Shown one piece after another: positions 2,569 through 5,058 of a stretch of 64,000 bases of DNA (position 1 is the first letter of the stretch; the number at the start of each line of letters is the position of its first letter). Below the pieces are notes generated by a model. That model searched no databases. It was given only the letters and a program-made list of their open reading frames with translations, and was not told the origin of the DNA. The stretch is from Candidatus Saccharimonadota bacterium. Lineage in GTDB: Bacteria > Patescibacteriota > Saccharimonadia > Saccharimonadales > Saccharimonadaceae. The position numbers and the translations under genes are program-made. The DNA lies in NCBI GenBank assembly GCA_017552385.1, contig JAFZQB010000013.1, positions 1-64,000 of the forward strand, read 5' to 3'.

Positions 2569-5052
2569 TTAAAGCCGGTTGATGGTTTTTAGAACAGAGG
2601 GCTTGTCGGACTCGATGAGTTTCAAGGTAGACTCGATGTCGTTTTTGGCAACCTTGAGCGTGCGAGCGAGAACGGGGTTTTCGGAGAGCGGCGTGAAGAA
2701 TTCGAAGAATTTGTTGGCGTCTTCCCTTCTGTCTATCGTGGAAGCAAAGTAACGTGGGTAATCTTCGATAGATTTCTCGCCATTTATCTTGTAGATGTAA
2801 TTCCAGTTATTAAACATCCAGTCGAGTGCGCGGTCGCGGGTGTAGCGCCAGCGGCGAAGGCGAAGTAAGAATCCGAGGTGGTCTTGGGGCTTCAGAAGCG
2901 GTGAGCCTTTGAGCAAAGAAAAGGCGAAGTCGATATTGCTCTTAAGGCGAGGTTTGGCAAGCGTAGAGCGGAGCTCGGCTTTAAGCTCTGGGTCGGCTGT
3001 GGACTTGTAAGCTTCGAGGACGACTGGATAGAATTCGGCTTCATCACGCCACATCTTGGCGGAGAGAATGAATGGGCGGATATCGGCGGGCATATGCTCG
3101 AGCTCTGGGACGTAGAGGTCGCAGAGTGAATCGATAAACTCTGGATTTTTGGAGTAGAGTGCGGCGCCGAGTAAGGTCTGACGCAATTCGACATCATTTA
3201 AAGGCTCGCTTTCTTTGGTGGTGAGGCCGAGCTTTGCGAGCGGAGCCTTAACGATATCATATATATAGGCTTTGTATTTAGCCTCTTCTGGCGTATCGTA
3301 ATCAATGAAGAGAGTAAGTTTACCGATGATGGTGTCGATGATTCCCCAGACTGGAGCCGAGGAATCGTTCTTGAACTTGGCGATAAGTGGGATGAGTGAA
3401 CTTGAAGCTACGATTGGGGTCTCAGCGAGGAGCATGCGGTCAATGAGGAGACGGAGGCGCTGTTCTGGGGAGAGACTAGAGAAGTCTTTGAGAGCCTGCT
3501 CGAATTCTGGGCCGGAGAGGTTGATAAGATAGTGGCCTGACATGTCGTCTTTGACTTCTGGGATTGGATATTTCGAATCGTCAGAAGAGCCGTCTAGTAG
3601 GAAACGCTGTTGAGCTTCGTCGGTGATGACCGGGTAGCCAGGCTGAGTGATCCAAGCGGTCATAAGATCGCGAACGGAGAAACCTTTGGCGAAGGGCTCG
3701 AGTGAAGACCAGAGATCAGAGGCTTCAGCGTTCTGATAGGCGTGCTTTTCAAAATATGATTTGATTCCCTTGTAGAAGGCTTCTTCGCCTATTTCGCGGA
3801 TGAGCATAAACATGAGGTGCGCGCCTTTAGCATAAACAATACACGGGTCGAACAGTGTGGCAATTTCGGCGGGGTCTTTGACGTCTTCTCTAACGGCTTG
3901 AACGCCTTCGATAGCGTCACGATAGAGAGCGGCTAGACAATCTTGAGTGAAGAAGTCGAACCAAACGCGGAACTTCGGGAAAATTTTGTCAGTAGCATAG
4001 TATTCCATGATGGTGGCGAACGATTCGTTGAGCCAGAGATCGTTCCACCATTTCATGGTAACGAGATTGCCGAACCATTGATGAGATAGCTCGTGAGTGA
4101 TGGTGAGCGCGGCGGCTTTCTTGGTGGCTATAGAGGATGCTTCATCACAGAGAAGTTGGGATTCGCGGTAGGTGACGAGGCCCCAGTTTTCCATGGCGCC
4201 GGCTTCGAAGTCGGGAATACCGACTTGATCGAGCTTCTTCAGCGGATATGGAGTATCGAACAGCTCGTCGTAATAATCCAGAGATTTGACCGCGATGTCA
4301 TTAGGGAGTTTCAAGAGCTTTTGGTCTTGGTTTAGAGGAGCGTAAGTGCGGACCAAGACGCCGGATTTGGTCTTCCCTTCCACGTAGTTGAACTTGCCGA
4401 TGGCAAAAGCGAGGAGATAGGTGGACATTTTGGGTGTTTTCTCGAAGCGCCAGCTTGTGGCTTGCGCCAAGGTCGCTTCTGTCGGACGCAAGTCGCCTCG
4501 GCCCGTCGTCACGGGCGAGGCGCTTGCCGGAACTCGGTCGTGACCTCCGTTACGCCGACAGGAAGCGACACTTGGCTTCGCCACTAAGGGCATATTCGAC
4601 AGGACGATGTCGTCTTTGTCAGGGACGGTGATGGTGAGATCGAAGGTGGCTTTGGCGGCGGGTTCGTCGATGCATGGGAAGCACTCCCTAGCGTAGTGTG
4701 ATTCGAATTGAGTAGAAACGATGCGCTCTTCCCTGCCTTCATGCTCGTAAGTCGAGAGGTAAGCACCCTGCATGTCTTCTTTGATAGAGCCGTGAAACTT
4801 TACTTTAACCACTAGGTCGCTTTTAGGGGTGGCGGGTGCGGTCAGGATGCCATTATTATGTGAGAAAGTGGTGGGCTTGTCGTCGATTTCGAGAGAGTCA
4901 ATGATAAGGTCAATAGCGTGGAGCTTAATAAATTCGGCGGCTTTGGTCTTGCCTTTGATTTTGACAGTGCCGCTCAATGCTTTTTTGTGTTTATCGATGA
5001 AGAAGTCGAGGAGATAGGATTTGGGTGTAAAAAAGTCTAGTAATCTTTCCAT
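2569..5052 (-). CDS. pepN: M1-family aminopeptidase (PepN-like)
   Basis: An 827-aa zinc metallopeptidase that would remove N-terminal residues from peptides, probably in the cytosol since no signal peptide is seen. The M1 hallmarks are present: the substrate-binding GAMEN motif (FEAGAMENWG) and the zinc site HELSH followed about 18 residues on by NESFA. An N-terminal beta domain precedes the catalytic domain, and a long helical C-terminal domain follows. ATG 5052 is chosen: TATACT lies 6 bp upstream, predicting a leaderless mRNA, and there is no Shine-Dalgarno. Oddity: about residues 159-196, between SNMP and FEKTPKM, are encoded by a GC-rich 111-bp palindromic insertion that keeps the frame. 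The gene is transcribed alone. Confidence 0.93.
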   Translation of the reverse strand: MERLLDFFTPKSYLLDFFIDKHKKALSGTVKIKGKTKAAEFIKLHAIDLIIDSLEIDDKPTTFSHNNGILTAPATPKSDLVVKVKFHGSIKEDMQGAYLSTYEHEGREERIVSTQFESHYARECFPCIDEPAAKATFDLTITVPDKDDIVLSNMPLVAKPSVASCRRNGGHDRVPASASPVTTGRGDLRPTEATLAQATSWRFEKTPKMSTYLLAFAIGKFNYVEGKTKSGVLVRTYAPLNQDQKLLKLPNDIAVKSLDYYDELFDTPYPLKKLDQVGIPDFEAGAMENWGLVTYRESQLLCDEASSIATKKAAALTITHELSHQWFGNLVTMKWWNDLWLNESFATIMEYYATDKIFPKFRVWFDFFTQDCLAALYRDAIEGVQAVREDVKDPAEIATLFDPCIVYAKGAHLMFMLIREIGEEAFYKGIKSYFEKHAYQNAEASDLWSSLEPFAKGFSVRDLMTAWITQPGYPVITDEAQQRFLLDGSSDDSKYPIPEVKDDMSGHYLINLSGPEFEQALKDFSSLSPEQRLRLLIDRMLLAETPIVASSSLIPLIAKFKNDSSAPVWGIIDTIIGKLTLFIDYDTPEEAKYKAYIYDIVKAPLAKLGLTTKESEPLNDVELRQTLLGAALYSKNPEFIDSLCDLYVPELEHMPADIRPFILSAKMWRDEAEFYPVVLEAYKSTADPELKAELRSTLAKPRLKSNIDFAFSLLKGSPLLKPQDHLGFLLRLRRWRYTRDRALDWMFNNWNYIYKINGEKSIEDYPRYFASTIDRREDANKFFEFFTPLSENPVLARTLKVAKNDIESTLKLIESDKPSVLKTINRL
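4466..4576. repeat. 111-bp nested palindromic element inserted in frame in pepN
   Basis: The outer arms pair over about 20 bp (4466-4485 with 4555-4576, two single-base bulges). They enclose two perfect hairpins. Hairpin A is 4488-4527: GCAAG/CTTGC, CGCCTCG/CGAGGCG, CCCGT/ACGGG, loop CGTC. Hairpin B is 4528-4549: CGGA/TCCG, GGTC/GACC. The whole forms a three-way junction. It is visibly more GC-rich than the flanking gene. Its length is 37 codons and it keeps the pepN frame. The encoded residues (Arg, Ala, Thr, Pro rich) have no counterpart in M1 peptidases. It resembles in concept the palindromic elements of Rickettsia that insert within genes. Confidence 0.8.
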
Positions 5053-5058
5053 AGGAAT

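Follow-up and report, generated by a model that had tools for sequence, protein, structure and literature searches.

The 64,000-nucleotide stretch of DNA analysed here (hereafter the window; positions 1 to 64,000 of contig JAFZQB010000013.1 from a Candidatus Saccharimonadota genome, assembly GCA_017552385.1) raises the question of how a strongly palindromic segment, rich in guanine and cytosine (GC), came to lie in frame within pepN, the gene for an M1 aminopeptidase. An earlier note, made from the letters of this DNA alone, had proposed an in-gene palindromic mobile element, and with family copies in 59/60 genomes of the same genus and empty pepN orthologues among relatives, that interpretation proves largely right. 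The pepN palindrome is very probably a copy of a mobile DNA element of about 120 bp that is dispersed and non-autonomous, of the protein-coding palindrome kind. Beyond what the note anticipated, the element lies antisense to pepN, its arms are specific to each copy yet always complementary, the pepN copy is old, and the bounds are wider than first drawn. The host gene and the parts of the element are as follows.

2569-5055, minus strand: pepN, the host gene, encoding an M1 aminopeptidase (828 aa, ATG at 5055), from its open reading frame, Pfam domains and homologues.
4457-4584, plus strand (oriented as in the family model and antisense to pepN): the palindromic element, from its fold, a covariance-model match and ends common to sister-species copies.
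4457-4461, plus strand: left half of a short terminal stem, pairing with 4580-4584, from the fold and from matching ends in copies L200, L275 and L237.
4466-4485, plus strand: left arm of the outer stem, copy-specific in sequence, from the fold and from the pairing of arms of ~20-21 bp in 130 copies.
4488-4527, plus strand: inner hairpin 1, carrying GCCCGTCGTCACGGGC (4501-4516), the most conserved motif, from an alignment of 32 copies.
4528-4549, plus strand: inner hairpin 2, with the conserved motif CTCGGTCGTRACCTCCG (4533-4549), from alignment and covariation.
4555-4576, plus strand: right arm of the outer stem, from the fold and from arm pairing across copies.
4580-4584, plus strand: right half of the terminal short stem, from the fold and from the ends of sister-species copies.

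The host gene has Pfam domains Peptidase_M1 (PF01433), Peptidase_M1_N (PF17900) and ERAP1_C (PF11838) and homologues in 94/100 relatives. Positions 4456-4586 fold at -78.5 kcal/mol, as compared to -51.2 +/- 3.6 kcal/mol for shuffled sequences (z -7.54; 0/200 shuffles as good), and the three-way junction that had been drawn from the letters, with its arms and both hairpins, was placed correctly. The inner hairpins are not perfect as had been claimed, since the first has one bulge and the second an internal loop and a G-T pair. Beyond the arms, pairing resumes past an internal loop to give the terminal 5-bp stem (4457-4461/4580-4584), and because this stem closes the unit and sister-species copies share the same ends, we take the element to be approximately 128 bp (4457-4584); these bounds are wider than the 111 bp first delimited (4466-4576). 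The element is more GC-rich than the genome as a whole (66% vs 44.5%). Its length had been described as a multiple of three. Compared with homologues that lack the element, the net change does keep the frame, but the elements differ in length and divisibility by three is not a property of the element as such. The element encodes approximately PepN residues 158-200, of which residues 165-196 have a predicted local distance difference test score (pLDDT) below 50 and are flanked by two strands of the N-terminal domain, the rest of the predicted model being confident; the inserted residues are thus predicted to form a disordered loop, in line with the translated loop that had been envisaged.

The element belongs to a dispersed family. 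A covariance model of the core (R1), built from the alignment of 32 copies, matches the pepN copy at 4478-4565 (67.5 bits, E 7e-22) and recovers copies in the 59/60 same-genus genomes mentioned above, with at least 33 scored copies in the best genome; copy numbers are lower bounds, at most 44 candidates having been scored. The genome of the window holds two, the pepN copy and, in tsaD on contig C12 (17101-17207), a decayed one. The other copies whose absence would have told against a mobile element do exist. R1 matched none of the genomes from other families of the order (0/40), and in a class-wide sample it found sparse copies in g48 and g58, which are other genera of this family, and a single, marginal match outside the family (E 8e-4). 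BLASTN with the element itself returned core matches in many same-genus genomes and nothing significant outside the genus. A pattern scan with the hairpin 2 motif over 84,980 species genomes gave at least 118 stretches, and all matches listed were titled Candidatus Saccharibacteria, many of them from the ruminant gut. Searched against Rfam at E up to 5, ten loci gave nothing at the element, and the part of the literature covered yielded no report of coding palindromes from Saccharibacteria or Patescibacteria. The family comprises previously unreported hairpin elements of about 120 bases, distributed across a single taxonomic family of tiny Saccharibacteria of the gut. Viral contigs that were scanned held no match, and a viral vector was rejected on that ground.

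How did the element come to occupy its present sites? The pepN site had been expected to be normally a short loop, and this is what is seen in G030, whose gene is 70% identical and has a plain short loop, and in many other relatives, where the distance between the SNxP and FExTP motifs is short; orthologues do not all carry a homologous, non-palindromic loop in its place. Copies in pepN are also present in G083, JAFRJG, G008, G001, G017 and G077, some in the opposite orientation, and the copy in the window is an old one, shared with G083 and JAFRJG. Similarly, a beta-hairpin loop of ObgE holds a copy in 11 species and is bare (GTVVKRDGEVIADL) in approximately 19. When 67-70 filled/empty pairs are compared, likeness to the empty site sets in symmetrically, 20-30 nt beyond the core on either side, and neither arm is found in the empty site, which shows that the whole unit, arms included, was gained. 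Furthermore, L229 and L259 in G083, and L200 and L275 in JAFRJG, occupy unrelated sites with arms 88% and cores 96-97% identical; that near-identical copies, arms included, stand at unrelated sites in two genomes is direct evidence of recent movement. It could be objected that the matched public records are metagenome assemblies and that the length of the PepN loop differs among relatives, so that the palindrome might be an artefact of assembly or annotation, or else a common variable loop that is palindromic by chance. Dozens of independently made assemblies, from different hosts, contain the family, its copies are in frame and orthologous between species, and the fold is extreme (z -7.5); this explanation is scarcely credible.

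The element is also, to a large degree, a coding one. For at least 84 of 134 distinct copies, one segment of homology to a protein of the window genome spans the copy, in frame and free of stops. These copies lie in 30 genes, among them those for GatB, Der, LepA, DnaX, UvrB, IleRS, an RlmD-like methyltransferase, MnmA, ObgE, TruB, TsaD and PepN, and a further host that we take from its sequence to be TrmD. Nearly all use four of the six frames, the two unused being those most often closed by stops. As all 84/84 are stop-free and in frame, the element appears to be translated and not removed, and open frames together with landing in loops would account for its tolerance within genes. In G024, a single ObgE gene contains two in-frame copies (L096, 926-1009 and 1701-1786).

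Structural conservation, to which we now turn, could be read as the mark of a functional RNA, regulatory or involved in processing, that lies in mRNAs and is kept by host selection on its fold. The most constant segments across copies are the loop of hairpin 1 (GCCCGTCGTCACGGGC) and hairpin 2 (CTCGGTCGTRACCTCCG). Over the 32 aligned copies pairing holds in 92% of the cells of the consensus structure, and sliding the partners lowers this to 37-59%; 92 cells are changed on both sides, against 10-19 after sliding; in the main helix of hairpin 1, compensatory changes occur at 7/11 pairs. Such strong covariation, and the retention of pairing between orthologous insertions, are what a functional RNA would display. 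Genic copies are, however, equally often sense (41) and antisense (43), they share no common gene class or position except loop tolerance, their open frames indicate that they are translated rather than removed, and the Rfam search was empty. On the orientation balance and the coding frame we reject an RNA regulatory element, and any host-selected RNA function seems to us very unlikely.

Over all copies the GC content of the core is 68.7% vs 44.6% in the flanks. An analysis of 130 copies shows the two outer arms of a copy pairing with each other to ~20-21 nt outside the core, after which pairing falls sharply to background. At 17-21 nt, pairing is 0.67 within a copy and 0.30 between copies, and the arms are therefore of fixed length and copy-specific sequence. 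A conserved one-nucleotide bulge in the right arm was considered and dropped, as there is only a bias (an extra base on the right in 28 and on the left in 10 of 120 copies). Core identity is 0.85 within a genome vs 0.78 between genomes; the arms are 0.53 identical within genomes and 0.49 between, little more than chance (0.45 when shuffled).

It is reasonable to ask whether the arms are instead copies of the target, made at insertion by fold-back template switching, with the core alone mobile. Site-specificity of the arms contrasts with near-identity of the cores in the same genome, some shared sites have an inverted core within conserved outer arms, and in one comparison (L291 vs L305) arm-like sequence stands on both sides of the empty site. 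Against this, in 70 filled/empty pairs neither arm is closer to the empty site than is its reverse complement, similarity starts symmetrically outside the arms, and recently moved pairs bring their arms along. The empty sites and the moved pairs mostly refute a target origin of the arms, which we consider very improbable.

A second possibility concerns upkeep rather than arrival. The core stands in opposite orientation at 35/93 orthologous-site pairs, the best cases being L299 vs L286 and L113 vs L243, where the outer arms are conserved and the core is inverted. Where both partners of an arm pair have changed between orthologous insertions, 62/70 of the double changes (89%) keep a Watson-Crick pair. 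The upkeep of the palindrome after insertion must be due either to selection on the fold or to recombination or template switching between arms. One might propose that a mutational process, namely recombination or template switching at replication, acts between arms and between copies to preserve the palindrome and to flip and homogenise the core, with little or no transposition now. The inverted pairs, the compensatory changes in the arms and the greater likeness of cores within genomes would all follow. The arrival of near-identical copies at unrelated sites (L200/L275, L229/L259) is left unexplained, and inverted pairs may equally be independent insertions at tolerated sites. We regard this account as possible, if rather doubtful.

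Returning to a mobile element as the preferred explanation, we envisage that the whole folded unit, comprising variable arms of ~20 bp, a closing helix and two GC-rich hairpins, inserts at a new site, and that it moves in this folded state, helped in trans. A copy would survive in a gene when it lands stop-free and in frame at a position tolerant of a loop, where it would simply be translated, and its arms would remain complementary while the gene diverges. The help in trans may come from an enzyme that recognises the folded strand, as hairpin or cruciform, with no fixed end sequence, and the element is probably selfish, at best neutral to the host protein. We would go further only tentatively: that an enzyme of this family of Saccharibacteria reads the fold alone, with arms that are renewed or that drift under enforced pairing, and has settled the element in dozens of essential genes, is a proposal we think somewhat improbable. 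If true, recognition of the fold alone would constitute a structure-only class of bacterial transposition.

Several observations weigh against a mobile element of this kind. Same-genome pairs with cores at least 95% identical have arms just 60% identical, and since near-identical cores carry differing arms, simple copy-and-paste fails to explain the divergence. Pairing is retained long after insertion, unlike what one would expect of a selfish insert that is dead. No general target-site duplication was found, with no excess over 103 copies, the insertions being old; a possible TTAA/GTTAA repeat is visible in L271 compared with L242. Exact junctions are uncertain because most of the insertions compared are old, with flanks 70-85% identical. 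Last, no mobilising enzyme was identified among the Y1 transposases, reverse transcriptases and tyrosine recombinases examined. The Y1 transposase family (PF01797) is missing from 46/48 genus genomes searched and present in 2, and a RAYT/Y1 mobiliser was rejected on this ground; a reverse transcriptase, of a retron or other reverse-transcribed element, was rejected for the lack of RVT_1 in G017, G024 and G035, genomes with 17-28 copies. Tyrosine recombinases are uninformative, as every genome tested has at least one. A putative 9-kb autonomous version in G188, suggested by three direct copies, was discarded: at least two of these copies lie in long open frames and there is no repeated 9-kb unit.

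Several genus genomes carry 1-5 reverse transcriptase genes (RVT_1, frames mostly ~365-530 aa; L315-L318), which are possibly diversity-generating retroelements; the genome of the window has none, and no element copy was found by a simple pattern within the four such loci read. In g48 (G153, G150 and G175; L321-L325), intergenic copies occur as inverted pairs ~55-280 bp apart, two of which (L322 and L325) sit between genes that we presume from their appearance to be groES and groEL. A copy (L132) stands at the corresponding intergenic place in G007, which belongs to the same genus as the window genome. In G074 (L123, 1441-1586), the 3' half and right arm of a copy are partly repeated in tandem after it. 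In G021 the loop of PepN that carries the element in the window (L024) contains another strong palindrome (-80.7 kcal/mol) unmatched by the core model, possibly a second family using this site.

Comparison with known systems places the element more closely. Bacterial miniature inverted-repeat transposable elements (MITEs) such as ERIC/RU-1, Correia/NEMIS and RUP are small, non-autonomous, dispersed elements with inverted repeats, sometimes fused in frame to open reading frames (PMC2229807). The Saccharibacteria element is likewise small, non-autonomous, dispersed, bounded by inverted repeats and found in frame in reading frames; it differs in having no conserved terminal inverted repeat (between-copy arm pairing 0.30), no general target-site duplication detected over the 103 copies and no parent insertion sequence found. 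Repetitive extragenic palindromic (REP) sequences and bacterial interspersed mosaic elements (BIMEs), which are associated with RAYT transposases of the Y1, HUH type, are palindromes recognised by structure and present in high copy number. The Saccharibacteria element is also palindromic and abundant, but is ~120 bp long as opposed to the 20-40 bp of REP sequences (PMC3733652), is mostly genic and not extragenic, and belongs to a genus in which most genomes searched (46/48) lack the Y1 family.

The closest likeness is to the palindromic elements of Rickettsia (RPE) and Wolbachia (WPE), long stem-loops of ~100-150 bp that occur in many copies, genus-wide, in frame in genes for conserved proteins, with encoded residues that are solvent-exposed and orthologous sites that are shared or re-occupied (PMC2229807; PMC3767692). 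The element described here is a palindrome of the same size class with many copies per genome and genus (2 in the window genome, at least 33 in relatives), lies in frame in conserved genes (84/134) and is missing from orthologues, and it encodes residues in a flexible region (PepN 165-196, predicted for this one protein). It differs in belonging to an unrelated phylum, the likeness being a functional one; in having a conserved, GC-rich double-hairpin core inside hypervariable complementary arms; and in being mostly genic among the sampled copies, equally frequent in both orientations and inverted in its core at some orthologous sites. With genomes of ~0.5-1.2 Mb and at least 30 genes occupied in ~59 sampled genomes, the density of the element allows one to study selfish DNA creating new protein loops in essential enzymes, and with ~60 species offering sites both occupied and empty, core flips and compensatory changes, the questions that RPE pose, how they move and why the palindrome persists, become directly testable by comparative genomics. 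The Saccharibacteria element is functionally what RPE and WPE are, and provides a third, phylogenetically remote case of protein-coding palindromes, after Rickettsia and then Wolbachia.
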